DNA of 64,000 bases from Ensifer sp. LC11. GTDB taxonomy: Bacteria; Pseudomonadota; Alphaproteobacteria; Rhizobiales; Rhizobiaceae. The notes below the pieces were generated by a model. The model worked only from the letters and a program-made list of their open reading frames with translations, did no database searches and was not told the origin of the DNA. Positions 2,857 to 20,728 of the stretch are shown piece after piece (position 1 is the stretch's first letter; every line of letters starts with the position of its first letter). Location of the stretch: assembly GCF_001695835.1 (NCBI RefSeq), contig NZ_MBSO01000072.1:1-64000 (forward strand), in the 5' to 3' direction. A program made the position numbers and the translations under genes.

Positions 2857-2904
2857 GCTACAATGCGGTACATATCCACGTGAAGATCGACACATCAGGG
2901 ATAC
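2857..2904 (+). promoter_or_regulatory. Double GATAC-type operator upstream of the secreted hydrolase
   Basis: Read toward the 2960 gene, a distal element has GGTACATATCC with GGTAC at 2867-2871, and a proximal element has GACACATCAGGGATAC with GATAC at 2900-2904. The two pentamers are 33 bp apart. The same layout and much of the same sequence occur upstream of 17845 and 20606. The proximal GATAC ends 55 bases before the start codon. Regulator not known; see findings. Confidence 0.5.
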
Positions 2905-2959
2905 CTCCCTCCGGCCAGATTGTCGTCGTTGCCTCCCGAACAAAAGAAGGAACGATCGC

Positions 2960-3718
2960 ATGAACCGCCGCATTCTCCCAACCATTGCCCTTGCCTTTGC
3001 GACAAGCGTCGTCGCCTTCGCCGCACAGGCGGCCGAAATCAAGAACATCGTCATCGTTCATGGCGCTTTCGCCGATGGCTCCGGCTGGCGCAAGGCGAGC
3101 GACATTCTGGAGCGCCGCGGTTTCAACGTGACGGTCGTCCAGGAACCGCTAACGTCGCTTGCCGCCGATATCGAGGCGACCAACCGTGTTCTCGACCTGC
3201 AGGACGGGCCAGCGCTGCTTGTCGGACACAGCTATGGCGGCCTCGTAATCACTGAAGCCGGCCATCACAAGAAAGTGGAGGGCTTGGTTTATGTGGCAGC
3301 GTTTCAGCCCAACAAGGGCGAAGACATCGCAAGTCTTGGCAGTTCGAAGCCGCCGGCCGCAATGAGCATCAAGGAAACGACCGACGGCAAATACCTCTAT
3401 CTCGATCCGAAGGCATTTGCCGCCGATTTTGCCGCCGATCTTCCGGCGGCGGATGCGGCCTTCGCCGCAAGGGCACAGGTCTTCGCCGCCAAGGAGGTTT
3501 TCACCGCCAAGGTCGGCGAACCCGCCTGGCGCACGAAGAAAAGCTGGGCGATCGTCGCAACCGAAGACCGCGCCATCAATCCGGACCTTGAGCGAAGCAT
3601 GGCCGAACGCGCCGGCAGCCAGGTAACCGAAATCAAAGCGAGCCACGCGGTCTTCGCCTCGCAAGCCGAGAAAGTCGCCGACGTGATCGAGATCGCAGCC
3701 AAGGGGGCCGGCAAATAG
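2960..3718 (+). CDS. Secreted alpha/beta-fold hydrolase
   Basis: A 252-residue hydrolase with an N-terminal Sec signal peptide (about residues 1-24, ending AFAAQAAE), so it probably acts in the periplasm. The mature part has the oxyanion-loop motif VHGAFADGSGWR and nucleophile elbow GHSYGG, with an acid in VATEDRAIN and a histidine in IKASHAVF near the end. This matches the small esterase/salicylate-esterase-like alpha/beta hydrolases seen beside oxidative-stress genes. The substrate cannot be told. AAGGA precedes ATG, and the upstream double GATAC-type element suggests co-regulation with dipZ-msrA and the small exported protein. Confidence 0.87.
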   Translation: MNRRILPTIALAFATSVVAFAAQAAEIKNIVIVHGAFADGSGWRKASDILERRGFNVTVVQEPLTSLAADIEATNRVLDLQDGPALLVGHSYGGLVITEAGHHKKVEGLVYVAAFQPNKGEDIASLGSSKPPAAMSIKETTDGKYLYLDPKAFAADFAADLPAADAAFAARAQVFAAKEVFTAKVGEPAWRTKKSWAIVATEDRAINPDLERSMAERAGSQVTEIKASHAVFASQAEKVADVIEIAAKGAGK

Positions 3719-3737
3719 CCCGAACGTGCCGCCCTCC

Positions 3738-3771
3738 GCGACCTGAGTGCGACCTTCAGCACTCAGGTCGC
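3738..3771. terminator. Strong hairpin after the secreted hydrolase gene
   Basis: Perfect 13-bp arms (GCGACCTGAGTGC at 3738-3750 and its complement at 3759-3771) with an 8-base loop begin 19 bases after the hydrolase stop codon. No T-run follows, so it may be a terminator of weaker type or an RNA-end stabiliser. Confidence 0.6.
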
Positions 3772-3902
3772 CCTGCTGACGCATGGCGGAACTATCCTAC
3801 CGCCAAAGACTTGTAACAATCCTCCAGTAATTTGCCCGGATCACACATCGACACCCAAGTGCTCCCGCCGTCATGTCCGCAAAGCCACCGCCGATCCGCG
3901 GC

Positions 3903-3960
3903 TTGACAGCGGGCTGTGAACGGCGGCAAACTTTGCGCATGGGGGTGCGATCACCCCATG
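3903..3960 (+). promoter_or_regulatory. Possible promoter and leader hairpin of the chromate resistance operon
   Basis: TTGACA at 3903-3908 is a perfect -35 hexamer, but the best -10 at 18-bp spacing is only CAAACT. A near-perfect dyad (CATGGGGGTG at 3938-3947 against CACCCCATG at 3952-3960) lies between it and the chromate gene start at 4014. It could be an operator or leader stem. The rest of the 3772-4013 gap shows nothing else. Confidence 0.3.
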
Positions 3961-4013
3961 AGGCGCCAGCCGAAGCATCGCGTCCATAGAACCGATCATC
4001 CGGAGGACGCGTC

Positions 4014-4835
4014 ATGTCGTCATTTCTTGAAATTTCTCCCGAAAAGCTTGCTCGCCTGATTGGCACCCCGAATTGCCCTGAACTCATCGACGTCAGGGTC
4101 GACGAGGATTTCGCCGTCGATCCGCGCCTGATCCCTGGCTCGGGGCGAAGCGACTATCACAAGGTGCAGGAATGGATGGGTACCATCGGCAAGACGTCGG
4201 CGGTGATCATCTGTCAGCAGGGCAAGAAACTCAGCCATGGCGTTGCGGCCTGGCTTCGGCATGCCGGCATTGCTGCCGATGTGCTCGAAGGCGGTTTCGA
4301 GGCCTGGACAAGAGTTGGCTACCCCGCCGTACCGATTTCCGCGTTACCAGATCGCGACGCCGTCGGACGGACCGTCTGGGTCACCCGCGCTCGACCGAAG
4401 ATCGATCGCATCGCGTGCCCCTGGCTGATCCGCCGTTTCGTCGACCCGAAGGCGGTCTTCCTGTTTGTCACCCCTGCCGAGGCCGAACTGGTTGGCCAAC
4501 GCTTTGGAGCGACGCCCTTCGATATCGACGCCCCGATCCGCTGGAGCCATCGCGGCGAACTCTGCACATTCGACGTCATGGTCGAAGAATTCGGACTTGC
4601 CACCGAACCGCTGCTGCGGCTGGCCACCATCGTGCGTGGCGCCGACACAGCCCGTCTCGACCTTGCTCCGGAAGCGCCTGGCCTGCTTGCCGCCTCCCTC
4701 GGTCTCTCGCGCATGTATGCCGACGATCTCGAGCAATTGGAGGCGGGGATGCTGCTCTACGACGCCTTCTATCGCTGGTGCCGGGATGCTACCAATGAGA
4801 CCCACAACTGGCCCTCCCCCAAGAAGGACGCCTGA
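4014..4835 (+). CDS. Rhodanese-ChrB fusion protein, chromate resistance
   Basis: A 273-residue protein with two parts. Residues 1-105 are a rhodanese (sulfurtransferase) domain with LIDVRVDEDF and an active-site loop CQQGKK whose cysteine is residue 67. Residues 120-265 are the chromate-resistance ChrB C-terminal domain (VWVTRARPKIDRIACPWLIR, then FVDPKAVFLFV). ChrB proteins act with the ChrA efflux pump and may sense or reduce chromate. Here the usual ChrB N-terminal DNA-binding part is replaced by rhodanese, so a sensing or redox role is more likely than repression. GGAGGA precedes ATG; chrA starts two bases after its stop codon. Confidence 0.9.
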   Translation: MSSFLEISPEKLARLIGTPNCPELIDVRVDEDFAVDPRLIPGSGRSDYHKVQEWMGTIGKTSAVIICQQGKKLSHGVAAWLRHAGIAADVLEGGFEAWTRVGYPAVPISALPDRDAVGRTVWVTRARPKIDRIACPWLIRRFVDPKAVFLFVTPAEAELVGQRFGATPFDIDAPIRWSHRGELCTFDVMVEEFGLATEPLLRLATIVRGADTARLDLAPEAPGLLAASLGLSRMYADDLEQLEAGMLLYDAFYRWCRDATNETHNWPSPKKDA

Positions 4836-4836
4836 C

Positions 4837-6243
4837 ATGACCGATATCGCGGACAAGGCCGCGCCGAAGGCGGCGCGGCAGCGGGAAAGCCACGGCATTC
4901 CGTTCGGCGAAGCCGTCAAGGTATGGGCACGGATCGCGGCGCTGAGTTTCGGCGGCCCGGCCGGGCAGATCGCGGTCATGCACCGCATTCTCGTCGACGA
5001 AAAACGCTGGATCGGCGAGCATCGCTTCTTGCATGCACTGAACTATTGCATGCTTTTGCCCGGACCCGAGGCGCAGCAGCTTGCGATCTATATCGGCTGG
5101 CTCCTGCACCGGACCGCCGGTGGCCTCGTTGCCGGTATCCTTTTCGTGCTGCCGGGCTTCCTGGCGATCCTGGGGCTGAGCTACATCTACGCCGCCTTCG
5201 GCAACGTCACCGTCGTTGAGGGCCTGTTCTTCGGCCTCAAGGCGGCGGTGCTCGCGGTGGTCGTGCAGGCCGTCTTCCGCATTGGCGGTCGGGCACTCAA
5301 GAACAGGGTGATGATCGGGATCGCGGCGGCGGCATTCGTCGCGATCTTCTTTTTCCGGGTTCCGTTCCCGCTCATCATTCTCGCAGCCGGCGTGCTCGGC
5401 TATGTCGGCGCCCGCTCGGGTTCGCCATTCTTCCGCATCGGCGGCGGCCACAAGGGAGAGGCGGGTCCGGTGCTCAAGGACGAAGATTCGGCGCTCGGAG
5501 AGGACATCCCCGCCCACGCCCGCCCCAACCTTGCGTGGTCGCTCAGGATTTCCGTCGTATTGCTCGCCCTGTGGCTCGTGCCACTCGCGCTGCTCATCAT
5601 TTTCCTCGGTCCGAACAACGTCTTCAGCCAGATCGCCCTGTTCTTCAGCCAGATGGCGGTGGTCACCTTCGGCGGTGCCTATGCCGTGCTTGCCTATGTC
5701 GCCCAGGAAGCTGTCCAGCACTATGGCTGGCTGAAGCCCGGCGAGATGCTCGACGGGCTCGGCATGGCCGAGACGACACCCGGTCCGCTGATCATGGTGG
5801 TGCAGTTCGTCGGCTTCATGGGCGCCTATCGCGATCCCGGTACAATCAGTCCGATGATGGCGGCGACATTGGGCGCAATGCTGACGACGTGGGTCACGTT
5901 CGTTCCCTGCTTCCTCTGGATATTCCTCGGCGCCCCCTTTATCGAGCGCTTACGCAACAACGTCGCGCTGACGGGCGCCATGTCCGCAATCACCGCTGCC
6001 GTCGTCGGCGTAATCCTCAACCTCGCGGTCTGGTTCGGCCTGCACACGCTGTTTGGCGAGGTCGGGACATGGAAACTGGGGCCGTTCGTCCTTGATATTC
6101 CGGTGCTGAGGTCACTGCTGCTTCCGTCACTTCTGCTGACGGTTGCCGCAGGCGTGGCGATCTTCCGCTTTCGCACCTCGGTCATCGCCACACTGCTTGG
6201 CTGCGCACTCGCCGGCATGGCCTGGACGCTCGCGACAACCTGA
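4837..6243 (+). CDS. chrA: Chromate efflux transporter ChrA
   Basis: Inner-membrane CHR-family transporter of 468 residues that exports chromate. It is the long two-domain form: each half carries the CHR motif, first FGGPAGQIAVMHR with LPGPEAQQLAIYIG (residues ~35-90), then FGGAYAVLAYVAQ with ETTPGPLIMVVQFVGF (~280-330). About ten to twelve hydrophobic segments are visible, with a charged linker around residues 200-230. The start ATG at 4837 follows the previous stop by one base and uses AAGGA inside that gene's end, so translation is probably coupled to the rhodanese-ChrB gene. Confidence 0.95.
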   Translation: MTDIADKAAPKAARQRESHGIPFGEAVKVWARIAALSFGGPAGQIAVMHRILVDEKRWIGEHRFLHALNYCMLLPGPEAQQLAIYIGWLLHRTAGGLVAGILFVLPGFLAILGLSYIYAAFGNVTVVEGLFFGLKAAVLAVVVQAVFRIGGRALKNRVMIGIAAAAFVAIFFFRVPFPLIILAAGVLGYVGARSGSPFFRIGGGHKGEAGPVLKDEDSALGEDIPAHARPNLAWSLRISVVLLALWLVPLALLIIFLGPNNVFSQIALFFSQMAVVTFGGAYAVLAYVAQEAVQHYGWLKPGEMLDGLGMAETTPGPLIMVVQFVGFMGAYRDPGTISPMMAATLGAMLTTWVTFVPCFLWIFLGAPFIERLRNNVALTGAMSAITAAVVGVILNLAVWFGLHTLFGEVGTWKLGPFVLDIPVLRSLLLPSLLLTVAAGVAIFRFRTSVIATLLGCALAGMAWTLATT

Positions 6244-6254
6244 TTGCAGTTGGC

Positions 6255-6449
6255 TCAGTCGTCGTAAACCGACTGGGGAAGGTGAAAACCCTCCGGCAAT
6301 TGCGAGCCGTGGAACTGCTCTTGCTCCACAAGCGGCGGAGGCTCCCGGTGCTTTATCGCGCAAGCGGCAAGAACTGCCTTGAGCTGCACCGGGCGATAGT
6401 GTTCGACAAGATTGGGAGGTGGATCCTGTTGGTCCGTTCGTCGCGACAT
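6255..6449 (-). CDS. Small hypothetical protein
   Basis: A 64-residue frame starting MSRRTDQQDPPPNLVEHY, converging with chrA and ending 11 bases from it. GAGGA lies about six bases before the ATG at 6449, better placed than for the ATG four codons upstream. The hydrophilic start, a helix-like middle (RPVQLKAVLAACAIKH) and a PPP stretch look protein-like rather than random, but I recognise no family. No signal peptide or membrane segment is seen. Confidence 0.45.
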   Translation of the reverse strand: MSRRTDQQDPPPNLVEHYRPVQLKAVLAACAIKHREPPPLVEQEQFHGSQLPEGFHLPQSVYDD

Positions 6450-6828
6450 CGGGTTCCTCATGGGAGCGGTTCGCCTTCAGGGTGACAGTGCCAGCCAATC
6501 GATCTCGCCGCAACCGTCTACAGCACCGTCACCCGCGCGACGATGCCATCAATGGACAACGAACCCGGACAGCCTCTGCCCCGGGTCGATTGTGGAAGAC
6601 GCATCCACGGCAAAAGGGTCCTCGGACTTCTTTCCCTCTGGGCGGGAACAGGCAAGGGCGAACTCTGGCAAGGCTCCGCCTCCGAACTGATCACGCACCT
6701 GTTTGCTACCTGATCGCGGCCGTCCCAAAGGAGCGCTCGCCGCCCAGAAGGCCGAGCGCGTCTTTACTTCCGCCATTTTGCGGGTGAATGTCGCCTCTTC
6801 AGCCATCGGTATTACGGAGCGCGGCATA
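6450..6828. other. Intergenic region without a supported gene
   Basis: About 380 bases between the small minus-strand frame and the LysR gene. Open frames here are short, lack ribosome sites and show no family motif. It must hold the promoters of 6449 and 6829, but no convincing -35/-10 pair was seen. Confidence 0.4.
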
Positions 6829-7761
6829 ATGGATCGGATCGATGCGATGAAGGTCTTCGTCACCGCCATCGATGAAGGCAGCCTCGCGGGTGCCGCCCGC
6901 CGGCTCAAGCGGTCGCCGACGGCGGTTAGCCGCGCGCTCAACCTGCTCGAAGCGCATGTTGGCGTAGAACTTCTGCATCGCACAACACGGTCGCTCAAAC
7001 TGAGCGAGGCAGGCCAGCGCTACGCTGCCGCCTGCCGACGGGTACTGATCGACCTGGAGGAGGCCGACATGCTCGCCGGCGGCGAACGTGCAGCCCCGCG
7101 CGGGACGCTGACCATTTCGGCTCCACCGATCGTCGGCGAAGAGGTGCTGCGCCCGATCCTTGACGATTTCCTCAACCTGTACCCTGCTGTTTCGGCCAGG
7201 CTTCTCCTGCTTGATCGCTTCGTGAACCTGGTGGACGAAGGCGTCGATATCGCGCTCCGTATCGGCCATCTGGCAGACTCCTCGCTCATTTCGACGCGGA
7301 TCGGCGGCGATGTCCGGCGCGTGGTCGTCGCCTCCCCCCGCTATCTCGCCAACCATCCGCGCATCGACGAGCCGGCCGATCTCGCCAAACACCAGATCGT
7401 CGCCTTCACCAATTTCGGCCTCGACACCTGGACGTTTCCGCCGGCCGAGGGGTCGCTGATCCCGCGTGCGGTGCAGTTCGCGCCGCGATGCATCGTCAAC
7501 AGCGTGCGGGCCGCCGTCGATTCCGCCGCCGCCGGAACCGGCCTCACCCGGCTCTATTCCTACCATGTCGCCGGTCACGTCCGAGACGGGCGCCTGAAGA
7601 TCGTGTTGCCCGAAGCGGAGTATCCGCCGATGCCGGTCCATCTCCTCGCGCCCCAGGGCCGCATGTCGGTGCCGAAGGTGCGCGCCTTTGCCGATTTCGC
7701 GGTGCCACGGCTGCGGACCGAGTTCACACGCATGGCAGCCGAAGCGGACGCTCTCAGCTGA
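6829..7761 (+). CDS. LysR-family transcriptional regulator
   Basis: A 310-residue regulator. The winged helix-turn-helix occupies residues 1-60 (MKVFVTAIDEGSLAGAARRL then SPTAVSRALNLLEAHVGVEL), with the common LysR continuation LLHRTTRSLKLSEAGQRY, and an effector-binding domain follows (~90-300). The start at 6829 gives the normal N-terminus for this subfamily (MDRIDAMKVF). It reads toward the SDR gene at 7905, 143 bases downstream, which it may control; LysR proteins more often control divergent genes. The effector is unknown. Confidence 0.93.
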   Translation: MDRIDAMKVFVTAIDEGSLAGAARRLKRSPTAVSRALNLLEAHVGVELLHRTTRSLKLSEAGQRYAAACRRVLIDLEEADMLAGGERAAPRGTLTISAPPIVGEEVLRPILDDFLNLYPAVSARLLLLDRFVNLVDEGVDIALRIGHLADSSLISTRIGGDVRRVVVASPRYLANHPRIDEPADLAKHQIVAFTNFGLDTWTFPPAEGSLIPRAVQFAPRCIVNSVRAAVDSAAAGTGLTRLYSYHVAGHVRDGRLKIVLPEAEYPPMPVHLLAPQGRMSVPKVRAFADFAVPRLRTEFTRMAAEADALS

Positions 7762-7831
7762 TTGTGCCGATTTTCGGTTGATTGACCACCATGGCGTGAC
7801 AATTCTCTCAATGAACGGATGGATCTAAATC

Positions 7832-7888
7832 TGATTGCACCAACGCCGAGGGCGAAGGACGGGCCGAACGAAACGCCCGTTGCAATCA
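7832..7888. promoter_or_regulatory. Dyad upstream of the SDR gene
   Basis: TGATTGCA (7832-7839) and its exact complement TGCAATCA (7881-7888) lie 49 bp apart, ending 16 bases before the SDR start codon. It could be a paired binding site for the adjacent LysR protein, but an 8-bp pair at this distance may arise by chance. Confidence 0.25.
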
Positions 7889-7904
7889 CAGAAGGATCAC
7901 GTCC

Positions 7905-8618
7905 ATGAGCAATGAGCAGAAGGTCGCCGTTATCACCGGTGCATCGCAGGGAATCGGCGCCGCCCTTGTGCGGGCATACCGCGATCGCAACTACCGTGTC
8001 ATCGCCACGTCCCGGTCCATTCAGGAGAGCGCCGATGCCGGTATCCTGGCCGTACCCGGCGATATCGCCAATCCGGAGACGGCAGAGAAGGTCGTTCGCC
8101 AAGGTCTGGAACGCTTCGGCCGCATCGACACGCTGGTCAACAATGCCGGCGTCTTCACCGCCAAGCCGTTCACCCAATTCACCCAGCAAGACTATGACCT
8201 GAACCTGGGCGTGAACGTCGCCGGCTTCTTCCACATCACCCAGCGCGCCGCCGCCGAAATGCTGAAGCAGGGCTCCGGCCACATCGTCAGCATCACGACC
8301 AGCCTCGTCAATCAGCCGATTGCCGGCGTTCCGGCCGCACTGGCATCGCTCACCAAGGGCGGGCTCAATTCCGTAACCCAGGCGCTCGCGATCGAATTTG
8401 CCAAGACCGGTGTTCGCGTCAACGCCGTCTCGCCGGGTATCATCAAGACCCCAATGCACGCGCCCGAAACCCACGCGGCACTCTCGACGCTTCACCCCGT
8501 CGGCCGGATGGGCGAGATCCGCGACATCGTCGATGCCGTCCTCTACCTGGAAGGCGCCAGTTTCGTCACGGGTGAGATCCTGCATGTCGACGGCGGCCAG
8601 AACGCCGGACGTTGGTAG
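7905..8618 (+). CDS. Short-chain dehydrogenase/reductase-like protein lacking the catalytic tyrosine
   Basis: A 237-residue SDR fold protein: nucleotide-binding TGASQGIGAA (residues 11-20), NNAG (79-82), and a C-terminal VTGEILHVDGGQNAGRW. Normal SDR enzymes use Ser, Tyr and Lys; here the YxxxK motif reads ASLTK (147-151), so the lysine is kept and the tyrosine is alanine. Classic NAD(P)-dependent oxidoreduction is therefore doubtful. It may belong to a known-looking subgroup with PAALASLTKGG in this place. AAGGA lies before ATG. A tautomerase gene follows after a hairpin. Confidence 0.88.
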   Translation: MSNEQKVAVITGASQGIGAALVRAYRDRNYRVIATSRSIQESADAGILAVPGDIANPETAEKVVRQGLERFGRIDTLVNNAGVFTAKPFTQFTQQDYDLNLGVNVAGFFHITQRAAAEMLKQGSGHIVSITTSLVNQPIAGVPAALASLTKGGLNSVTQALAIEFAKTGVRVNAVSPGIIKTPMHAPETHAALSTLHPVGRMGEIRDIVDAVLYLEGASFVTGEILHVDGGQNAGRW

Positions 8619-9077: not shown

Positions 9078-9178
9078 CAGGCCGGCTTGCAATACATGCC
9101 CACGCAAGTCTGGATGCCGAAAACACACCTGAGACACATATTGCGCGCCAATGGAGTGCGAGCAGAGTTCCGCCGGTT

Positions 9179-9239: not shown

Positions 9240-9980
9240 ATGGAACATATCGACCACGTATTGATCGTCGACGACGACCGCGAAATCCGGGAACTCGTAT
9301 CGAACTATCTCAACAAGAACGGGCTGCGCACCACAGTCGCCGCCGATGGTCGGCAAATGCGCGCCTTTCTCGAGGGCAACACGGTCGACCTCATCGTGCT
9401 TGACGTGATGATGCCGGGCGATGACGGGCTCGTGCTCAGCCGCGAACTGCGCGCTGGCAAGCACAAGGCGATCCCGATCATCATGCTGACGGCCCGCTCG
9501 GACGAAATGGACCGCATCCTCGGCCTCGAAATGGGCGCGGATGACTATCTTGCCAAACCGTTCTCGGCGCGCGAGCTGCTTGCCCGGATCAAGGCGGTGC
9601 TCCGGCGTTCGCGCATGTTGCCGCCAAACCTTCAGATCTCGGAAGCCGGACAACTGCTGCGCTTCGGCACGTGGCGGCTCGATACGACCGCACGCCACCT
9701 GATCGATGCCGATGGCACAGTGATCGCGCTGAGCGGCGCCGAGTATCGCTTGCTCCGCGTCTTCATCGACCACCCCCAGCGGGTACTCAACCGCGACCAA
9801 CTGCTCAATCTCACCCAGGGGCGCGAGGCCGACCTTTTCGACCGATCGATCGATCTGCTCGTCAGCCGTGTCCGCCAGCGGCTTGGCGACGACGCGCGTG
9901 AGCCCACCTACATCAAGACCGTGCGCAGCGAAGGCTATGTCTTTTCGGTGCCGATCGAAATCGTTGAGGCGCGCGAATGA
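9240..9980 (+). CDS. OmpR/PhoB-family response regulator
   Basis: A 246-residue regulator. The receiver domain (1-120) has the acidic pair in VDDDREI, phospho-acceptor Asp55 in LIVLDVMMPG, and lysine in YLAKPFSARELL. The C-terminal winged helix (~145-240) has the OmpR-type LSGAEYRLLRVFIDHP and DRSIDLLVSRVRQRLGD. It shares a four-base ATGA overlap with the histidine kinase gene, so the two form a pair. Neighbouring ohr, epoxide hydrolase and dipZ-msrA genes make a role in oxidative or electrophile stress plausible, but that is inference. Confidence 0.95.
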   Translation: MEHIDHVLIVDDDREIRELVSNYLNKNGLRTTVAADGRQMRAFLEGNTVDLIVLDVMMPGDDGLVLSRELRAGKHKAIPIIMLTARSDEMDRILGLEMGADDYLAKPFSARELLARIKAVLRRSRMLPPNLQISEAGQLLRFGTWRLDTTARHLIDADGTVIALSGAEYRLLRVFIDHPQRVLNRDQLLNLTQGREADLFDRSIDLLVSRVRQRLGDDAREPTYIKTVRSEGYVFSVPIEIVEARE

Positions 9981-11311
9981 CAATGGCCGCCCAGCCGACA
10001 GGTTTTCGACTATGGCCGCGCACGCTTAGGGCGCGGCTCTTTGTTATCCTGCTCGCCGGTCTGACGATCGCGCATGTGATGTCGTTCACCGTCCTGTTTT
10101 TCGAGCGCTACACGGCCGCCCGGTCGGTGATGTTCAATACGCTCGAGAATGATATCGCGACGTCGATCGCGATCCTCGATCGCCTGCCCGCGAGCGAGCG
10201 GGCTGCATTGCTCGACCGACTGGGCCGCGACAACTATAGCTTCATTCTCGGCCCTGGCGTTCCAGGCAACCCTTCGCTCGATCCGGCCGCCGCCGAGATC
10301 GCCTCCAAGATCGAGCGCGCGACCGGTCTCGATCGCCCGGTCAAGGTCGAAACGATCCCGGGTAGCCGCCGACGTCTTCAGGCGCATCTTACCTTGAGCG
10401 ACGGTTCGCCGCTGACCATCGATGTCTATCCGAAAGGTGTCATGCCGCTGGCTGACTGGCTGCCTTTCGTGCTCATAGCTCAGCTCGCCCTCCTTCTTCT
10501 CTGCAGCTGGTTTGCTATGCGACAGGCCGTGCGCCCGCTCGTCAATCTGGCGGAGGCCGCCGACACGCTCGACCCGAACCGGAACACGCCGCGGCTCAAC
10601 GAAACGGGTCCAACGGAGGTTGCCTATGCGGCAACCGCGTTCAACGCCATGCGAGACCGCATCGCCCAATATCTGGAAGAGCGGGTACAAATTCTTGCCG
10701 CCATATCCCATGACCTGCAGACACCGATCACCCGCATGAAACTGCGCGCGGAAATGGCAGAGGATTTCGCAGACCGGGAAAAACTGATCCAGGACCTCGG
10801 TCAGATCGAGAGCCTGGTCAAGGAGGGGGTCGCCTACGCGCGCAGTGCCCATGGCAATGTCGAAAAGACGACCAAGGTCGACCTTTCATCGTTTATCGAA
10901 AGCCTCGTTTACGACTACCAGGACACCGGCAAGCCTGTTACCGCCAGCGATATCGATGGCGGCGCGATCACGACCCGGCCGCAGGCGCTGAGGCGCATTC
11001 TCACCAATCTGGTCGACAACGCCCTCAAATTCGGCGGCTGCGCCGAGATCGTGGCGCGGCGACTTGCCGACGACACGGTGGTCATCGCCGTGCTTGACCG
11101 CGGGCCGGGTATTCCCGACGATCAATTGCAAGCCGTGCTGAAGCCGTTCTTCCGATTGGAGGATTCCCGCAACCGCGACACCGGCGGAACCGGCCTTGGC
11201 CTTGCCATCGCCCAGCAGCTTGCGGCGTCCATCAATGCCACGCTGACCCTCAAGAACCGCGCTGGCGGGGGCCTGGTCGGCGAACTCGTCATTCGGCGCG
11301 AGCAAGCATGA
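9977..11311 (+). CDS. Sensor histidine kinase, partner of the 9240 regulator
   Basis: A 444-residue membrane kinase. Two membrane segments (about residues 18-40 and 160-180) enclose a periplasmic sensor of roughly 115 residues without recognised fold. Then come HAMP (RQAVRPLVNLAEAADTL), the H-box ISHDLQTPITRMKLRAEM with the phosphorylated histidine, N-box LVDNALKFGG, and G-boxes GPGIPDDQ and GTGLGLAIAQQ. Start ATG overlaps the regulator's stop. The order regulator-kinase and the LQTP H-box resemble the EnvZ/RstB-like group. The signal is unknown. Confidence 0.94.
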   Translation: MTMAAQPTGFRLWPRTLRARLFVILLAGLTIAHVMSFTVLFFERYTAARSVMFNTLENDIATSIAILDRLPASERAALLDRLGRDNYSFILGPGVPGNPSLDPAAAEIASKIERATGLDRPVKVETIPGSRRRLQAHLTLSDGSPLTIDVYPKGVMPLADWLPFVLIAQLALLLLCSWFAMRQAVRPLVNLAEAADTLDPNRNTPRLNETGPTEVAYAATAFNAMRDRIAQYLEERVQILAAISHDLQTPITRMKLRAEMAEDFADREKLIQDLGQIESLVKEGVAYARSAHGNVEKTTKVDLSSFIESLVYDYQDTGKPVTASDIDGGAITTRPQALRRILTNLVDNALKFGGCAEIVARRLADDTVVIAVLDRGPGIPDDQLQAVLKPFFRLEDSRNRDTGGTGLGLAIAQQLAASINATLTLKNRAGGGLVGELVIRREQA

Positions 11312-11553: not shown

Positions 11554-11970
11554 TCAGGCAAGGGTGAGCGTGACGTCGATGTTGCCGCGGGTGGCCTTGG
11601 AATACGGGCAGGTCTGATGGGCCGCCTCGACCAACCGCTCCGCTACCTCGCGGTCGATGCCGGGCAGGCTGACATTCAGACGTGCCTGCAGGAAGTATCC
11701 GCCGTCGCGGTTGCGCAGATCCACTTCCGCGTCGACGGCGGTATCCGCTGGAAGCGTAATCTTCTGCTGCCCCGCCGCCAGTCCGATCGCTCCGATGAAA
11801 CACGCCGACCAGCCGGCTGCAAAAAGTTGTTCCGGGTTCGTCCCGGGGCGGTTGCTGCCCGGTGAGGAGAGCTTGACGTCCAGACGCCCGTCATCGCTGC
11901 GGGAAGCCCCTTCACGGCCGCCGATCGTGTGGGTCTTGCCGGTGTACAATAGCTTTTCAGTGTCGGTCAT
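11554..11970 (-). CDS. ohr: Organic hydroperoxide resistance protein (Ohr/OsmC family)
   Basis: A 138-residue thiol peroxidase that reduces organic hydroperoxides. The two family cysteines are present: one in FAAGWSACFIGAI (about residue 56) and one in AAHQTCPYSKATRGN (about residue 120). Length and termini match Ohr rather than the longer OsmC. ATG at 11970 has AAGGAA upstream and gives the normal start MTDTEKLLYTGKTHT. No OhrR gene is adjacent; instead GATAC-type elements lie 80-160 bases upstream, so control may differ from the standard OhrR scheme. Confidence 0.93.
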   Translation of the reverse strand: MTDTEKLLYTGKTHTIGGREGASRSDDGRLDVKLSSPGSNRPGTNPEQLFAAGWSACFIGAIGLAAGQQKITLPADTAVDAEVDLRNRDGGYFLQARLNVSLPGIDREVAERLVEAAHQTCPYSKATRGNIDVTLTLA

Positions 11971-12050
11971 AGTGGTGTTCCTTTCGACAGAGTATCCAAT
12001 CGGGCTCCATGCCCTTGTGCCGCTGTCGGAAGACATATGGCGCTTGCCAC

Positions 12051-12127
12051 GTGTACGGGATGTTTCGCGAGCGCACGGAAATGTAGGGAACTTCGCAAAC
12101 CTGAAGAAACCGATACATTCTGATACG
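12051..12127 (-). promoter_or_regulatory. GATAC-type elements upstream of ohr
   Basis: Read toward ohr, a tandem GTATC-N5-GTATC (plus-strand GATAC at 12112-12116 and 12122-12126, ten bp apart) lies about 60 bp above a proximal GAAACATCCCGTACAC element (12051-12066), which resembles the dipZ proximal element; TACATTTCC at 12075-12083 sits near the place of its distal copy. The remainder of the gap 11971-12352 shows no gene. Confidence 0.4.
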
Positions 12128-12352: not shown

Positions 12353-13405
12353 TTAGAGGCGATCGGCGTCCAGAATTGCCTCGGCAAAGGCCAGCGGCGC
12401 CTCCTGCGGCAGGTTGTGGCCGATGCCGCCGGTAATCAGCCGGTGCTCGTACTTGCCTGAAAACCGCTTGGCATAGACGGCCGGATCGGGATGCGGAGCG
12501 CCGTTGGCATCGCCCTCCAGCGTGATGGTCGGGACGGTGATCGCCGGAAACTGGGCGAGGCGTTTTTCAAGATCGTCGTATTTCGCTTCGCCCTCGGCAA
12601 GGCTCAGCCGCCAACGGTAGTTGTGGATGGAGACATCGACATGGTCAGGATTTTCGAGTGCCGCGGCGCTGGCATCGAAAGTCGCATCGTCGAAGTTCCA
12701 CTTCGGCGAGGCAAGCTTCCAGATCAGCCTGGCGAACTCCTTGCGGTTCTCATGATAGCCCGCGTATCCGCGCTCGGTCGCAAAATAGAACTGGTACCAC
12801 CAGGAAAGCTCGGCCTGCGGCGGCAGCGGCTTCCTGTTCACCTCGCGGCTGCCGATCAGGTAGCCGCTAACGGAGACCAGGGCCTTGCAGCGCTCCGGCC
12901 ACAGCGCGGCGATGATGTTGGCGGTCCGGGCGCCCCAGTCGCAGCCACCGATCACGGCCTTCTCGATGTGGAGGGCATCCATGAGCGCAATGATGTCGGC
13001 AGCAATGACCGCCTGCTGACCGTTGCGCGGCGTATCGGCGGAAAGGAACCGGGTGGTACCGTAACCGCGCAAATACGGGACGATGACGCGATAGCCGGCA
13101 TTCGCAAGCAACGGCGCCACGTCGACATAGGTGTGGATGTCATAGGGCCAGCCATGCAGCAGGATGACCACCGGTGCATCGGGCTCGCCAAGCTCGGCGT
13201 AGCCGACATTCAACACACCGGCATCGATCTGCCTGATCGAAGCGAAGGTTTTGTTCGTGCCCGGCGTGATCGCCGGCAGACGCGATGTGTGAGCGCGCCC
13301 GGACTGGGCCCGTGCTGCACCGGTAGCACCGAACTGCGCAGCGGCAAGCGACAAGGCGAGCGCGCCGATGAATTGACGCCGCGGGTGGTTGATTTCGTCC
13401 GACAT
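12353..13405 (-). CDS. Tat-exported epoxide hydrolase-like alpha/beta hydrolase
   Basis: A 350-residue hydrolase with a twin-arginine signal (HPRRQFIGALALSLAAA, residues ~8-45), so it is exported folded. The catalytic part has oxyanion motif LLHGWPYDIHTY and nucleophile elbow GGCDWGARTA, with an aspartate nucleophile as in epoxide hydrolases and haloalkane dehalogenases; the C-terminal catalytic histidine is in GGIGHNLPQEAP. Start ATG at 13405 has GGAGAC upstream; longer in-frame extensions cross the operator region. GlxA-type regulator gene lies upstream in the same direction. Confidence 0.9.
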   Translation of the reverse strand: MSDEINHPRRQFIGALALSLAAAQFGATGAARAQSGRAHTSRLPAITPGTNKTFASIRQIDAGVLNVGYAELGEPDAPVVILLHGWPYDIHTYVDVAPLLANAGYRVIVPYLRGYGTTRFLSADTPRNGQQAVIAADIIALMDALHIEKAVIGGCDWGARTANIIAALWPERCKALVSVSGYLIGSREVNRKPLPPQAELSWWYQFYFATERGYAGYHENRKEFARLIWKLASPKWNFDDATFDASAAALENPDHVDVSIHNYRWRLSLAEGEAKYDDLEKRLAQFPAITVPTITLEGDANGAPHPDPAVYAKRFSGKYEHRLITGGIGHNLPQEAPLAFAEAILDADRL

Positions 13406-13452
13406 TGGCTGTCTCCGGTGAATTGAACTGCCTTCACCAATGGAGTGCCGAT

Positions 13453-13527
13453 GTATCCCGGTGGTGTGCCGAGCAGATTGATTTGAAAGCGCGTGTAGGC
13501 AATCGGGCGCGCGATACACACCGATAC
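13453..13527 (-). promoter_or_regulatory. GATAC-type elements upstream of the first epoxide hydrolase
   Basis: Plus-strand GATAC at 13513-13517 and 13523-13527 form a tandem ten bp apart. A proximal element, read toward the gene as CACACCACCGGGATACATC, has its GATAC complement at 13453-13457, 60 bp below the tandem. The ohr promoter has almost the same arrangement. Confidence 0.4.
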
Positions 13528-13562: not shown

Positions 13563-14504
13563 TCAGGCGACGCCTTCTCGCGCGTTGCGGCGGATCGTCT
13601 GCGGCGGCTGCCCGAGCGTGCGCAGAAAGGCCCGGCGCATGCGATCGCTGTCGGCAAAGCCGGTTTCCTCGGCGATCACATCCATCGAGTGACGCCCCTG
13701 CTCCATCATCAAACGCGCCGCCTCCACCCGCAGGTGCTCCACTGCCTTTGCCGGCGACTGGCCCGTTTCCGAACGGAAAGCCCGGCTGAACTGCCGCGCA
13801 CTCAACCCGGCAGCATCCGCCAGTTCCTCGACCGACAACAGATTGCGCAGGTTTGCCTTGGCATAGTTGACGGATTTCTGGATGCGGTCCGACTTCGGCT
13901 CCAGTTCGAGCAAGGCGGAGAACTGCGACTGCCCACCGGCGCGCCGGTGATAGACGACAAGCTTGCGTGCGACCGATCGGGCAACCTCCTCGCCGTGATC
14001 CTTCTCGATCATGGCGAGCGCCAGGTCGATGCTCGCCGTCATGCCGGCAGACGTCCAGACGCTGCCATCGACGATGAAGATGCGATCCTCTTCGACCTTC
14101 ACATCCGGGAAACGCTCCTGGAGCTGGCGCGCAAACACCCAATGGGTCGTGGCGCGGCGCCCGTCGAGAAGTCCGGACTCCGCCAGGACGAAAGCGCCGG
14201 TGCAGGGTGCGGCCACGCGCCGCGAGACCTCCAATGCATGCCGCGCGAACGCGACGAGCCCCGGCGTTACCGGCTCGATTTCCGTCCCGGCCCCAAACAT
14301 GACGGTGTCGTAGATCGTATCGTCGAAGGCCTTCGTCAGCACGCCGAAGCCGGCCGACGACTTTATCTCGCCGCCGGTTTCCGACAACAATGCTATCTCG
14401 TAAGCCTGTTCGCCAAGGGTCAGATTGGCGACCTCAAAGGCGGTGACCGCCGCGAAACCCATGAGCTGGAACCTTGGAAAGACGACATAGCCGATCCTGT
14501 GCAT
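13563..14504 (-). CDS. GlxA-family AraC-type transcriptional regulator
   Basis: A 313-residue regulator. Residues 1-170 form a DJ-1/PfpI-like class I amidotransferase domain (AAPCTGAFVLAESGLLDGRR around the nucleophile-elbow cysteine), and the C-terminus is a double helix-turn-helix of AraC type (LADAAGLSARQFSRAFRSET, then IAEETGFADSDRMRRAFLR). Such proteins usually activate nearby operons in response to small molecules. AraC monomers contact two sites about one helical turn apart, so it is one candidate for the GATAC-type elements in this region. It lies in a run of five same-strand genes. Confidence 0.92.
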   Translation of the reverse strand: MHRIGYVVFPRFQLMGFAAVTAFEVANLTLGEQAYEIALLSETGGEIKSSAGFGVLTKAFDDTIYDTVMFGAGTEIEPVTPGLVAFARHALEVSRRVAAPCTGAFVLAESGLLDGRRATTHWVFARQLQERFPDVKVEEDRIFIVDGSVWTSAGMTASIDLALAMIEKDHGEEVARSVARKLVVYHRRAGGQSQFSALLELEPKSDRIQKSVNYAKANLRNLLSVEELADAAGLSARQFSRAFRSETGQSPAKAVEHLRVEAARLMMEQGRHSMDVIAEETGFADSDRMRRAFLRTLGQPPQTIRRNAREGVA

Positions 14505-15221: not shown

Positions 15222-15252
15222 GGTGGTTCTCCTTTGTGGTTCGGTTCGGGTT

Positions 15253-15270
15253 GGGCGCGGGCTCGCGCCC
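15253..15270. other. Stem-loop between the second epoxide hydrolase and the glyoxalase-fold gene
   Basis: GGGCGCG (15253-15259) and CGCGCCC (15264-15270) form a 7-bp stem with a four-base loop, just after the hydrolase stop codon. Likely an RNA processing or weak termination element within the gene run. Confidence 0.4.
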
Positions 15271-15276
15271 GCCCCT

Positions 15277-16620: not shown

Positions 16621-16646
16621 CATCATTCTCCTTGTTAGAGCGGTGA

Positions 16647-16667
16647 GGCGATGCCTGCGGCATCGCC
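16647..16667. other. Stem-loop between the SDR and epoxide hydrolase genes
   Basis: Perfect 9-bp arms GGCGATGCC (16647-16655) and GGCATCGCC (16659-16667) with a three-base loop lie 27 bases before the hydrolase start. It may tune expression between the two genes. Confidence 0.5.
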
Positions 16668-16704
16668 AAGTTGTTCCGGGACGGATTTCGGGAAGCGATC
16701 GGCG

Positions 16705-17505
16705 CTATCCCCCGACGTTGTAGCGGGCTGCAGGCGCGCTCCTCGAAAGGTTGGGCATCAGCTTCTGGCGCGCCGCCTCGTAGGCCGCCCAGTCCCCGGC
16801 ATCGGGTAGCGCCGGAATGGTGATCCCCTCACCCTGGTCGAGGCCGGCAAGCGCTGCATCGACCATGTCTTCAGCCCGCATGACGATCTCGCTCGGCACA
16901 TGTTCGATCGGCGTGCCGGCGATATCCCAGAAGTCCGTCGCCGTCGCACCCGGCAGAACGGCCTGGATCCGGATGTTTTTCTCGGCAAGTTCCTTCTGCA
17001 GCGACAGGGTGAGCGCCAGCACGAAGGCCTTGGTCCCACCATAGACCCCGTTCAGCAATTCGGGCGCGACACCGACAATCGAGGCGATGTTGATGATCGT
17101 TCCCGCGCCGCGCGCAACAAAACCGGGTGTGGCCGCATAGGTCAGCCGTGTCAGTGCGCTCACATTCAGCGTGATCATCTCCTCCATCTTGTCGACGTCG
17201 GAGGCGAGCAGCGGCGCGGTCGCGCCGACGCCGGCATTGTTGATCAGCATCGTGATGCTTGCGTCTTCCCGAAGCAGCGTCTCGACCCGCTTCAGATCGT
17301 CCTTGTTGCCGAGATCCGCCGGTACGACTTCGATGGCGCGACCCGTCTCGTCGGCGAGGCGGCTGGCGAGAGCATTCAAGCGTCCGCGGTTGCGGGCAAC
17401 GAGGATCAGGTCATAGCCGCGGTTCGCCAGGCGATCCGCATAGATCGCCCCGATGCCGGAGGATGCACCGGTAATCAGTGCGGTGCCCTTAATGTTCTTT
17501 CCCAT
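16705..17505 (-). CDS. Short-chain dehydrogenase/reductase
   Basis: A 266-residue SDR oxidoreductase. It has TGASSGIGAIYADRL for NAD(P) binding (residues ~12-26), NNAGVGA, catalytic serine in NIASIVG and the intact YxxxK motif (YGGTK). It belongs to the classical group with a long C-terminus, often annotated as YqjQ/DltE-like dehydrogenases; the substrate is unknown. ATG at 17505 has AAGGAG eight bases upstream. First gene of the same-strand run that ends with the Tat-exported hydrolase. Confidence 0.92.
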   Translation of the reverse strand: MGKNIKGTALITGASSGIGAIYADRLANRGYDLILVARNRGRLNALASRLADETGRAIEVVPADLGNKDDLKRVETLLREDASITMLINNAGVGATAPLLASDVDKMEEMITLNVSALTRLTYAATPGFVARGAGTIINIASIVGVAPELLNGVYGGTKAFVLALTLSLQKELAEKNIRIQAVLPGATATDFWDIAGTPIEHVPSEIVMRAEDMVDAALAGLDQGEGITIPALPDAGDWAAYEAARQKLMPNLSRSAPAARYNVGG

Positions 17506-17626
17506 TTTCAAGCTCCTTTGCCTTTGGTTGGAGCCTCGATAGTAAGTCGAGCAGCCCATGTCTCAAATGTCGTAATTCCGGCATTTTAGGCCATAAACTA
17601 TTGAGCCATCGAACGTCGCTCAGCCG

Positions 17627-17845
17627 TCATCCATCAATCGCCGGATGTGTCAGCTCCTCATGTGGAGCTTCATGCAGGAGCGCGTCGTCCTGTGCCGTGA
17701 CCGCCTGGGACTGGGCAGCGCCGCTTGAGAGCGGCGGCTGGCTGAAAAGCGCGGCAATTGCCGAAGGCTCCCTGGGATCGCTATCCCAGGCGCAAGGCGC
17801 CGCCGCGAGAGCGGCCACGGCAAAACCGGTTACGAAAATGCGCAT
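17627..17845 (-). CDS. Small exported protein of unknown function
   Basis: A 72-residue protein beginning MRIFVTGFAVAALAAAPCAW: a short Sec signal peptide with probable cleavage near residue 17-20. The mature part is about 50 residues, Ser/Pro/Ala/Gln-rich, ending in HEAPHEELTHPAID, with no known motif and only one cysteine near the cleavage site; the residues before it do not form a good lipobox. GAGGAA precedes ATG. The double GATAC-type operator upstream, laid out as at dipZ, suggests joint expression with dipZ-msrA. Confidence 0.65.
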   Translation of the reverse strand: MRIFVTGFAVAALAAAPCAWDSDPREPSAIAALFSQPPLSSGAAQSQAVTAQDDALLHEAPHEELTHPAIDG

Positions 17846-17939
17846 CGACTGTTCCTCTTCCACTAATGGGACCGGCAACCCTTGATCCGGACGCGTTCGC
17901 CGTCTCGGCCGGCCCTGGCTGTCAATTTCGCGTCCGGAC

Positions 17940-17988
17940 GTATCGCAGATGTGTTCGGTTGGCCTCGAAACTGTATCGGCATGTACGG
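17940..17988 (-). promoter_or_regulatory. Double GATAC-type operator upstream of the small exported protein
   Basis: Plus-strand GTATC at 17940-17944 and 17973-17977 are 33 bp apart. The proximal element read toward the gene is AACACATCTGCGATACGTCC, differing at few positions from the dipZ element. In a 26-base comparison starting at 17939 against 20680 I count about 20 matches. Confidence 0.5.
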
Positions 17989-18085
17989 CCGGGCTGAGGG
18001 CCAAATCGAAGGTGCAGCCGCCCCGGCACGACCGGGACGAGCCGTGCGCCCTTTCGGCCTTCCGGTGCGATGTGTCGCAGGCGGA

Positions 18086-18823
18086 CTACAACGCGCTGTC
18101 CGCCACGAGCACCGGTTTCTCCCGGTAGAGGCCTGGAAAAAGGCGGTGCAAGGCGCCGATCTTCGGCTGCTCGTAGATGACGACGTAGGGCTGGCGCGGA
18201 TTGTTGTAGACGTAGTCCTGATGATGGGCTTCGGCTTTGTAGAAGGACTTGCCGGGCTCGATCGTGGTTGCGATCGCCCGACCAAAAGCACCGGCCGTAT
18301 CGAGCTGAGCGATGTAGTCGGCGGCGACCTTTGCCTGTTCGTGGTCACGCGGAAAGATCGCCGATCGATATTGCGGGCCGACGTCCGGTCCCTGCCTGCC
18401 AAGCTGAGTCGGATCGTGCGCGACGGAGAAGTAGACCTCGAGCAGCTGGCCGTAGCTGACCTGCTTCGGGTCGAACGTTATCTCCACAGCTTCGGCATGC
18501 CCCGTAGTGCCGGTTTCGGTCAGTTCGTAGGTCGCCGTCGCGGCGCTGCCGCCGGCGTAGCCTGATGTGACGCGCGTGACGCCGGCGACGTGCTGAAACA
18601 CGGCCTGCACGCCCCAAAAGCAACCGCCGGCCAACACCGCCGTCTGGCTTGCCTCCGTTGACGCAATATCGTGGAGCGCCGTCGGAATGCGCCGGCCTTC
18701 CTCGGCAGTCGATTGATCGTTGACGGCAAGCGCCAGACCGCCCCCGATCAACACCACAGCACCGAGAAGACGCCAAATGGATCCGAGCAGCCGATGGCTG
18801 CGTTGCAGGTGATTTTCGCTCAT
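18086..18823 (-). CDS. msrA: Membrane-anchored peptide methionine sulfoxide reductase MsrA
   Basis: A 245-residue MsrA that reduces methionine-S-sulfoxide in proteins. An N-terminal anchor (residues ~12-35, WRLLGAVVLIGGGLALAV) places the catalytic domain outside the cytoplasm. The active-site motif GGCFWGVQ and the following SGYAGG, GHAEAVEI and YRSAIFP stretches are complete. Ten bases separate it from the upstream dipZ gene, so DipZ likely supplies electrons across the membrane to recycle it. The start ATG at 18823 is the first methionine before the anchor. Confidence 0.94.
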   Translation of the reverse strand: MSENHLQRSHRLLGSIWRLLGAVVLIGGGLALAVNDQSTAEEGRRIPTALHDIASTEASQTAVLAGGCFWGVQAVFQHVAGVTRVTSGYAGGSAATATYELTETGTTGHAEAVEITFDPKQVSYGQLLEVYFSVAHDPTQLGRQGPDVGPQYRSAIFPRDHEQAKVAADYIAQLDTAGAFGRAIATTIEPGKSFYKAEAHHQDYVYNNPRQPYVVIYEQPKIGALHRLFPGLYREKPVLVADSAL

Positions 18824-18833
18824 CTCAAATCCC

Positions 18834-20606
18834 TCATCCAAAGGTGAAAACGAACGCCTCGACGCCAGGCTCCAGAAAACGAATTTCGAAGGTCCGTTCC
18901 CTTGCCTCACCGGACTGGCGCACAAGCTGGTAGAGGCGCGTCTCAGAGACAGTTCCCTTGCCGACCGCATCGGTATCCGCGCCATGATCCGCGCCCGGCG
19001 GCACGCCATCGACCGTGATCTGGAAGGGCACCGGCTTGCCGCCTGCGCCCGGTCCAAGCACCAGATGCAGATCGCGGGCGCGGAACCGGTAGGTGATGCC
19101 GCCGCCAGCCTCGTTGAGGTGCGCCTGTTCGGCTCCCACAGTCCAGTTGCCGGCAAGCCCCCATTCGTTCAGCCGTGGAGCATTGACGGTGTAGCGTTGG
19201 GCGCTGTCGGCCGAGACGCCTTCGGGCGACACGAAATTTTCCCCGCGCGCGTAGCCGACATAGGTCTCGCCGGATCCGAGCCGCGTCAGATCAGGCGAGG
19301 CTTCGGCACCTTTCGCATCCGGCTTGACCAGGTCGGATTGAGCCTTGCGCTTACCGGCCGATTCGGCCAGCAAATCCTGGATCACGCGTTCGGAGCCTTC
19401 GTAGTCACCTTCGCCGAAATGGGTGTAGCGGATCTGTCCTTCGGCATCGATGAAGTAGTGCGCCGGCCAGTAATTGTTGGAAAAGGCCCGCCAGATTGCG
19501 AAATCGTTATCGATCGCCACGGGATAGGTGATCTTGAAATCGCGAACCGCCTGCTCAACGTTGCCAATCTGCTTTTCAAAGGCGAATTCCGGCGCGTGCA
19601 CGCCGATCACGACGAGGCCCTGATCGCGATACTTCTCCGCCCAGGCCCTGACATAGGGGATCGTCCGGATGCAGTTGATACAGGAATAGGTCCAGAAGTC
19701 GACGAGAACCACCTTGCCGCGAAGCTCCGCCGGTGTCAGCGGCTTGGAGTTCAGCCACTGAACGGCGCCGTCGAGCGACGGGAAGGTCCCTTCCACCGGC
19801 AGGTCGCTGCGATAGGTCGCCGGTCGCGTATCCTTTGCGGCGAGCGTCATGCGGCTGCTGGCAACGGAGACGTCACCCGCTCCGGCGCCACGCAAGCGGT
19901 CGAGGATGGATTGCTCGAAACCAGCCGTGCTCGCATAGGAGAGGCGCGCCAGCAATCCGGTGTCGAAGCCGGAAGCGATCGCCGCGACACCGGCAAGCAC
20001 GGCGACGCCCAGCCCCTGGCGAATGCGATCGCCAACACCAAGGAACCGCTTCATCGCCGAAAACACCCTGCCGCCGGCAAGAACCGCCAGTGCCAGCGAT
20101 GTCGCCGCACCGGCCGCATAGGCCGAAAGCAGCAGCGTCGTCTGCACGTTCGCGCCATTGAGAGCAGCGCCGGTCAGGATGAGTCCAAGTACAGGACCGG
20201 CACAGGGCGCCCAAAGCAGTCCGGTCGCAACGCCGAGCAGGATGGCGCCGCCGACGCTTCCCTTCTCGCCGGTCGCCGCCTTCCTGGACAATCTGTTGCC
20301 GAGCGCGACAAGCGGGCCGGTCAAGAACGTGGCGGCCCGTGTCGACAGCAGGCTGACGCCAAAGACCGCCAAGGGTGCGATCGCCGCGTAGCGTCCGAAC
20401 GCGTTTGCCTGCACGGCCCAGTTGCCGCCGAGCGCCGCGAGAGAGGCGATGCCTGCAAAGGTCACGATCTTGGCGAGCAGCATCGGCAGAATGCTGGTGG
20501 AAAAGGGCTGACCGGCGCGCGCGAACACGAACGGCAGCACCGGCAGGATACAGGGGCTGACGATCGTCAGCACGCCAGCGAGATAGGCTACAACAAACAG
20601 GAACAT
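18834..20606 (-). CDS. dipZ: DipZ/DsbD-like transmembrane thiol reductase with thioredoxin domain
   Basis: A 590-residue protein that passes electrons from cytoplasmic thioredoxin to the periplasm. Residues 1-240 are a CcdA-like domain with about six to seven membrane segments and the paired cysteines in VSPCILPV and WAPCAGPV. Residues ~285-420 form a TlpA-like thioredoxin domain with CxxC in YSCINCIRTIP. Residues ~450-590 are a beta-rich C-terminal domain as in actinobacterial and rhizobial DipZ. ATG at 20606 with GGAGGG upstream is preferred over the GTG at 20618. It forms an operon with msrA. Confidence 0.92.
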   Translation of the reverse strand: MFLFVVAYLAGVLTIVSPCILPVLPFVFARAGQPFSTSILPMLLAKIVTFAGIASLAALGGNWAVQANAFGRYAAIAPLAVFGVSLLSTRAATFLTGPLVALGNRLSRKAATGEKGSVGGAILLGVATGLLWAPCAGPVLGLILTGAALNGANVQTTLLLSAYAAGAATSLALAVLAGGRVFSAMKRFLGVGDRIRQGLGVAVLAGVAAIASGFDTGLLARLSYASTAGFEQSILDRLRGAGAGDVSVASSRMTLAAKDTRPATYRSDLPVEGTFPSLDGAVQWLNSKPLTPAELRGKVVLVDFWTYSCINCIRTIPYVRAWAEKYRDQGLVVIGVHAPEFAFEKQIGNVEQAVRDFKITYPVAIDNDFAIWRAFSNNYWPAHYFIDAEGQIRYTHFGEGDYEGSERVIQDLLAESAGKRKAQSDLVKPDAKGAEASPDLTRLGSGETYVGYARGENFVSPEGVSADSAQRYTVNAPRLNEWGLAGNWTVGAEQAHLNEAGGGITYRFRARDLHLVLGPGAGGKPVPFQITVDGVPPGADHGADTDAVGKGTVSETRLYQLVRQSGEARERTFEIRFLEPGVEAFVFTFG

Positions 20607-20680
20607 CAGTCCCTCCACACTGGATCGATGCCTTGCGGCAGCAATCGCGCTTTAGATGCGCAGCAGAGGATCATGGCGAC

Positions 20681-20728
20681 GTATCGCGGATGTTTCCGCT
20701 TGGAGGGGGATATGTATCGTAATGCAGC
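20681..20728 (-). promoter_or_regulatory. Double GATAC-type operator upstream of dipZ-msrA
   Basis: Plus-strand GTATC at 20681-20685 and 20714-20718 are 33 bp apart. The proximal element read toward dipZ is GAAACATCCGCGATACGTCG and the distal one contains CGATACATATCC. The proximal element ends about 75 bases before the start codon. The layout matches 2857-2904 and 17940-17988. Confidence 0.5.

Follow-up and report, generated by a model that had tools for sequence, protein, structure and literature searches.

The window analysed here comprises 64,000 nucleotides of Ensifer sp. LC11 (assembly GCF_001695835.1, contig NZ_MBSO01000072.1, positions 1 to 64,000 of the forward strand), and within 18 kb of it (positions 2,857 to 20,728) several promoters share a repeated GATAC-type element. 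This shared element is genuine, occurs far above chance, and is both larger and more widespread than described in an earlier note on this DNA, which had been made from the letters alone. The regulator of the element is very probably the OmpR-family response regulator encoded at 9240..9980, as indicated by the co-inheritance of the two. We hold with considerable confidence that this regulator and its neighbouring histidine kinase (the pair at 9240-11311) bind to the sites and activate dipZ-msrA, ohr, hydrolase genes, the gene for a small exported protein and perhaps their own transcription, as a regulon for the repair of oxidant damage in the envelope.

The three double elements that the earlier note had described are present at the positions it gave, upstream of an exported alpha/beta hydrolase gene (2857..2908, plus strand, ending 51 bp before the ATG), a gene for a 72-aa exported protein (17936..17987, minus strand) and dipZ-msrA (20677..20728, minus strand). 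A pattern search with GRTAC-N28-GATAC gave 10 matches in the genome, three of them inside the 18 kb, and 28 for the reversed-pattern control; with the other seven matches taken as background, the chance of three falling in the 18 kb is about 1e-6. The longer pattern GRTACA-N19-ACATCNGNGATAC is matched perfectly at just three places in the genome, all of them these promoters; after these come four matches with 3 mismatches, and at up to 3 mismatches the reversed control likewise yielded four.

Three scores are used in this work: the bits of a profile, R1; a matrix from 65 aligned sites; and an earlier matrix from relatives' dipZ promoters. R1 was built from alignment A1, which holds 65 of 68 non-redundant relatives' sites (three doubtful ones were dropped; the window was excluded). 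When the 6.2-Mb genome of the strain itself was searched, with 150 of 1051 first-look candidates scored and E-values that are rough, R1 gave six matches at E<0.01. These lie before dipZ (36.6 bits, E 1.9e-8), the small-protein gene (32.3 bits, E 4.5e-7; 65-site matrix 48.7), the hydrolase gene at 2960 (26.0 bits, E 4.6e-5; 65-site matrix 44.3), a gene on contig C11, abh (13449..13499, minus strand; 19.9 bits, E 0.0039) and ohr/osmC (12047..12097, minus strand; 19.1 bits, E 0.0066). The seventh match reached only E 0.49. This search recovers the three promoters of the earlier note and adds three more sites, and the set of three was too small also in that a degenerate element precedes the response regulator gene (9091..9141, plus strand; 65-site matrix 13.0), with half-sites TACA, CGCA, CACA and CACA at spacings of 10, 21 and 11.

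The aligned sites reveal four TACA-type half-sites in an element about 50 bp long, TACA-N6-TACA followed by ACACAT-N5-ATACRT. A TACA is followed after 10 bp by a second TACA (as GATACA), after a further 21 or 22 bp by (G)ACACAT, and after 11 bp more by (G)ATACRT. The two copies noticed earlier are real, except that each is itself one member of a pair. The half-sites within a pair are 10 or 11 bp apart, about one helical turn, as for OmpR-family sites, and the four form a set of two OmpR-type pairs, each a direct repeat. What the earlier note gave as 33 bp is the distance between the second half-sites of both pairs, and its claim that this spacing is exact did not hold: 32 bp occurs in 35 and 33 bp in 33 of the 68 non-redundant relatives' sites, about equally often, and a rigid 33-bp spacing was rejected. 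The 32-bp form is found at dipZ in L015-L018 (relatives' loci are given L numbers, sampled genomes G numbers) and at the window's own ohr, abh and regulator sites. An 11-bp ladder (positions 1, 12, 23 and 34) was also rejected, as the logo places the half-site upstream of the distal GATAC at a distance of 10 bp and shows none at 12. The window's sites end 40-98 bp before the start codons (about 70 by coordinates for dipZ), and a weak C[AC]NNAT trend, suggestive only, appears at the place expected for a -10 if the proximal pair covers the -35.

The element is conserved at the dipZ loci of relatives, for which the best 80 of 478 DipZ relatives from a scan of genome contigs were taken, with flanks of at most 10 kb. 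In 58 of these loci (L015-L069, L071, L072 and L075), belonging to Ensifer, Sinorhizobium, Rhizobium, Microvirga, Mesorhizobium, Agrobacterium, Pararhizobium, Azospirillum and members of the Rhizobiales, the proximal block starts 84-103 bp upstream of dipZ. The full site is present in 57 of them; the exception, L063, lies at the end of a contig and has just the proximal half. Across Rhizobium, Ensifer, Microvirga, Azospirillum and Mesorhizobium loci, the half-sites persist while spacers and flanks differ. With the matrix from the dipZ promoters, from which the window was excluded, the window's three sites reach 32.6, 37.6 and 41.8; a fourth site is picked up before ohr (18.7) and a weak fifth before abh (10.2), and the reversed window gives one match of at least 18. 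The same matrix finds 170 sites at 14 or more in the 58 loci versus 9 in the reversed control.

In the other 22 dipZ loci this matrix finds no site at 10 or above, and no regulator ortholog was found in their flanks. Because some of them come from strains that are also among the 58 (e.g. L046/L076), what these site-free loci demonstrate is that a single lineage of dipZ has the element, and not that the regulator is absent. The site-free dipZ genes (L070, L073, L074 and L076-L094) show 58-64% identity, and some are immediately preceded by an MsrB-like sequence (by eye) or have msrA behind them.

The distribution of the regulator and the site was compared across 121 genomes of the family and 297 of the order, five being in both, which makes 413. 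Regulator orthologs occur in 9 of the 121 family genomes (80-100% identity, the next best being 57%) and in 9 of the 297 order genomes (cut-off E 1e-90). R1 sites at E of 0.001 or below, counted under stricter filters and thus strong sites only, occur in 10 and 11 genomes, respectively. All 15 genomes with a regulator ortholog carry a site, versus three of the 398 without (Fisher 8e-25), and about 0.4 chance matches are expected from the E-value limit. The response regulator, one of two candidate readers named in the earlier note, fits this distribution well. When 11 genomes were checked for overlap with the training sites, an exact training site was found only in G071, with G029, G100 and G304 coming within 3-5 mismatches; this comparison left out five regulator-bearing order genomes. 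In one of the three regulator-less genomes (G045), the site adjoins lysR-SDR-tautomerase genes and is 191 bp away from the end of its contig, and in another (G399) it directly follows what looks like the remnant of a kinase gene (49% over 91 aa, 45% over 51 aa).

At the level of loci, the regulator gene lies within 52 of the 58 site-bearing ones. L017, L018 and L019 end at the kinase gene before reaching the regulator, and genome searches for L016, L019, L043 and L063 found it in all four. In G071 (contig C2; L165, L166) the cluster is split, with the regulator, kinase, lysR, SDR and tautomerase genes 1.86 Mb (contig coordinates) from dipZ, abh, araC and the epoxide hydrolase gene; the sites are kept despite the split.

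The regulator (plus strand) carries a receiver and a Trans_reg_C winged helix (Pfam), the domain composition of the OmpR family, and it is below the cut-off in all 25 NCBIfam models among the matches listed. Its DNA-binding domain is closest in sequence to that of OmpR among named solved structures, the best match of the whole protein is RegX3, and conservation of the protein is strong across 54 sequences, that of the window among them. The proposed sensor is the EnvZ-like kinase encoded at 9977..11311 (plus strand), in which HAMP and HATPase_c are above cut-off and HisKA, at 26.5 bits, is just under its cut-off of 26.9. Y87, H137, M156 and W161 are invariant around the presumed periplasmic part (topology judged by eye), and C176, in the second hydrophobic segment, is 96% conserved.

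The target genes seem to repair oxidised envelope proteins and to destroy peroxides. DipZ (18834..20606, minus strand) has thioredoxin-like domains, Thioredoxin_10 and a DsbD-like membrane domain (24.7 bits, just below the cut-off of 27.1). The msrA gene (18086..18823, minus strand), which starts 10 bp behind dipZ and lacks a separate element, encodes an MsrA with an N-terminal hydrophobic leader (TIGR00401, 169.1 bits, cut-off 108.1). The ohr gene (11554..11970, minus strand) encodes an Ohr-family peroxiredoxin (TIGR03561, 168.4 bits, cut-off 88.85), and abh (12353..13408, minus strand) an alpha/beta hydrolase with an exported, twin-arginine-like leader. The 72-aa exported protein (17627..17845, minus strand) matched no Pfam family in the Pfam search; its leader, like that of abh, was judged by eye. 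The other exported alpha/beta hydrolase is encoded at 2960..3718 (plus strand).

To score targets in relatives, the 65-site matrix was applied to 200 bp upstream of each gene with a cut-off of 15; the random background was taken from the same loci and so includes real sites. In the site-to-gene assignment, 24 of 174 sites were not matched to a window gene, glyoxalase rows were excluded from the survey of flanking genes, and no target genes were drawn from the '-' matches L136, L140, L144, L147, L150 and L157, for which direction had not been allowed for. A site of at least 15 precedes all 54 abh genes scored (window included) and 49 of 50 ohr genes, as well as 3 of 12 SDR genes adjoining the small-protein gene and 2 of 7 epoxide hydrolase genes. 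No such site was found before msrA (0/20), the histidine kinase gene (0/24), lysR (0/13), the SDR gene at 7905 (0/11), araC (0/8) or xthA (0/4), which supports our reading, as these genes are expected to need none. The hydrolase of 2960 is encoded directly behind dipZ in 27 relatives' loci, and none of the 26 such copies scored has its own site; the window's separate copy does have one, and would be a gene that left the dipZ operon or never joined it and that is under the same control.

At the regulator gene itself, 9 of 54 upstream regions have a site of 15 or more, in addition to the window's 13.0 and the 9.3 of L026. The stronger sites are those of L064, L027, L020, L165, L025, L015, L024, L022 and L071; in L064, which has no abh, the site is 136 bp before the regulator. 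In L052 the end of a site and the start of the regulator are about 310 bp apart, the assignment of this site to the regulator gene ('RR9240') resting on an extended frame. In many Rhizobium loci the regulator comes after the site-bearing abh on the same strand, and the abh site could there serve both genes. Several loci (L028-L031, L034, L035 and L039), all from Microvirga apart from Rhizobium sp. Root1220 (L034), have a single TACA-type pair, 10 bp apart, near the regulator start and lack a good proximal pair.

Outside the cluster, the site on contig C11 is 235 bp before the ATG of an EamA transporter gene. In L025 a protein very similar to this transporter (by eye; no Pfam match at 0.001) follows a weak site (14.7). 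Other off-cluster sites precede genes for an exported Cupin_2 protein (G103, G304) and an epoxide hydrolase, EHN (G063).

Phosphorylated OmpR binds two tandem 10-bp half-sites, according to an excerpt of PMC7380067. In the window, the EnvZ-like kinase would phosphorylate the 9240 regulator, which would bind to the four-half-site element. The proximal dimer would cover the -35 region, and the regulator would therefore act as a class II activator, switching on dipZ-msrA, ohr, the two exported hydrolase genes, the small-protein gene and the off-cluster transporter gene, and also its own gene through the weak site. The trigger would presumably be oxidant damage to the envelope, because the targets include a membrane thiol carrier, an exported MsrA, Ohr and exported hydrolases. 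The earlier note had suggested a common activator and a regulon of extracytoplasmic stress proteins; a common regulator and the exported or redox nature of the proteins are supported, while activation and stress, like binding and autoregulation, are what we infer.

Several observations weigh against this proposal. As many as 43 of the 54 regulator genes have no site within 200 bp (score below 9), though many of them follow a site-bearing abh on the same strand, and the window's regulator promoter has only its degenerate site, missed by R1. An oxidant signal for the kinase is a guess made from the targets only, and the kinase alignment has no conserved cysteine between the two hydrophobic segments. 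As regards co-inheritance, 49 and 20 candidates were scored per sampled genome, so that absence means no strong site; in one genome (G246:C204:8980-9023) a site at E 1.4e-4 was detected but neither a regulator ortholog nor any sign of the system; and the correlation could be due to some other gene that is always inherited along with the pair.

Other explanations of the sites were weighed. The araC/DJ-1-type (13563-14504) and lysR (6823-7761) genes are both located within these 18 kb, and direct repeats can serve AraC proteins as sites; the AraC protein was the second candidate reader of the earlier note. However, of the 58 site-bearing loci only 8 contain a close relative (at least 65% identity) of araC and only 12 one of lysR, and neither gene has an upstream site. 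Both were rejected as readers on distribution, and control by either is extremely improbable. Mere chance or recent duplication of one promoter would agree with there being only three perfect copies in the genome, but it is refuted by half-sites that are kept in five genera while the sequence around them changes, and its likelihood is next to nil. It is also highly improbable that the element is a -35/-10 promoter of an extracytoplasmic sigma factor. A precedent does exist, since EcfF runs DsbD-like and methionine sulfoxide reductase genes in Bradyrhizobium japonicum from a GTAAC-N14-15-CG promoter (PMC3420878); the element conserved here, on the other hand, extends over about 50 bp and has its direct repeats spaced by 10, 21-22 and 11 bp, and its presence tracks a response regulator.

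A different question is whether the response regulator acts at these sites as a repressor or a dual regulator instead of an activator, which we regard as unlikely. The position relative to the transcription start comes solely from the weak -10-like trend, and this leaves some room for repression. Repressor sites more often overlap the -10/+1 region, however, and the window's sites end well before the start codons.

Among the papers listed by searches of an open-licence library, none describes this system in its title or at the beginning of its abstract. Activation of an envelope-oxidant repair regulon by the 9240 pair would resemble OmpR/EnvZ in several respects, namely a regulator with receiver and winged helix, an EnvZ-like kinase, and direct-repeat half-site pairs 10-11 bp apart. 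Nevertheless, both proteins fall below the respective equivalog cut-offs (regulator 247.5 versus 331 for OmpR; kinase 170.7 versus 415 bits for EnvZ), and the targets here are redox and hydrolase genes, whereas those of OmpR are porins. HprR of E. coli belongs to the CopR/CusR subfamily, and the 9240 regulator is below the CopR/CusR-type model TIGR01387 (136.6 bits versus a cut-off of 279.2). HprSR (YedVW) of E. coli is a two-component system controlling an envelope methionine-sulfoxide reductase, msrP (PMC12096835, excerpt), and is a functional counterpart, although the reductase here is MsrA beside DipZ and not the molybdoenzyme MsrP. EcfF/OsrA and EcfQ of B. japonicum have the same kind of targets (DsbD-like protein and methionine sulfoxide reductase), induced by H2O2 according to PMC3420878; output is by sigma factors there, and here an OmpR-type protein is proposed to act directly. 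For one two-component system of Ensifer, Rhizobium, Microvirga and others, our results would supply at once a code for binding, a list of targets and a function that can be tested; they would also connect orphan exported hydrolases and small proteins with the repair of oxidant damage in the envelope, and they suggest a second, non-sigma-factor control of DsbD-like/Msr repair genes in rhizobia.

The ecfQ promoter has conserved GAAAC boxes at -80, -59 and -26, with distances of 21 and 33 bp between them, which PMC3420878 leaves unexplained. A pattern for this array occurs in 12 of the 297 order genomes, up to three times per genome, with none in the reversed control. Identity of the array with our site was not supported: R1 (E 0.001) matches none of the 12 array genomes. 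Because the arrays also carry an inverted repeat that the window's element lacks, we treat them as a lead and not as the same site.

Nine of 21 listed array places were inspected for their neighbourhoods. In three (L184, L189, L192), a response regulator gene 42-43% identical to that at 9240 ends 74-329 bp before the array and a 203-aa sigma-factor gene follows it, with Sigma70_r2 and r4 in L184 and L189 and a near-identical protein (by eye) in L192; a DipZ-like sequence also follows in L184 and L192. In L188 a 46% identical regulator precedes the array, with no evident sigma gene. Across these four places the regulators lie 21-329 bp before the array, and the other five inspected have no such regulator in 17-18 kb. 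By its position, the OmpR-type regulator is a candidate for the unknown regulator of ecfQ. It is conceivable, though doubtful, that a wider Rhizobiales set of OmpR-type proteins controls repair of envelope thiol and methionine oxidation by the same phased code (second half-sites 32-33 bp apart), directly in the window's branch and via EcfQ in Bradyrhizobium-like genomes; if so, the related regulator just before ecfQ would answer what controls it. Finally, dipZ is associated separately with another regulator in the dipZ-msrA loci of Cupriavidus, Paraburkholderia and Burkholderia (L087, L090, L093), where a different protein of the OmpR type (39% identity) is encoded on the opposite strand, about 1 kb before dipZ.

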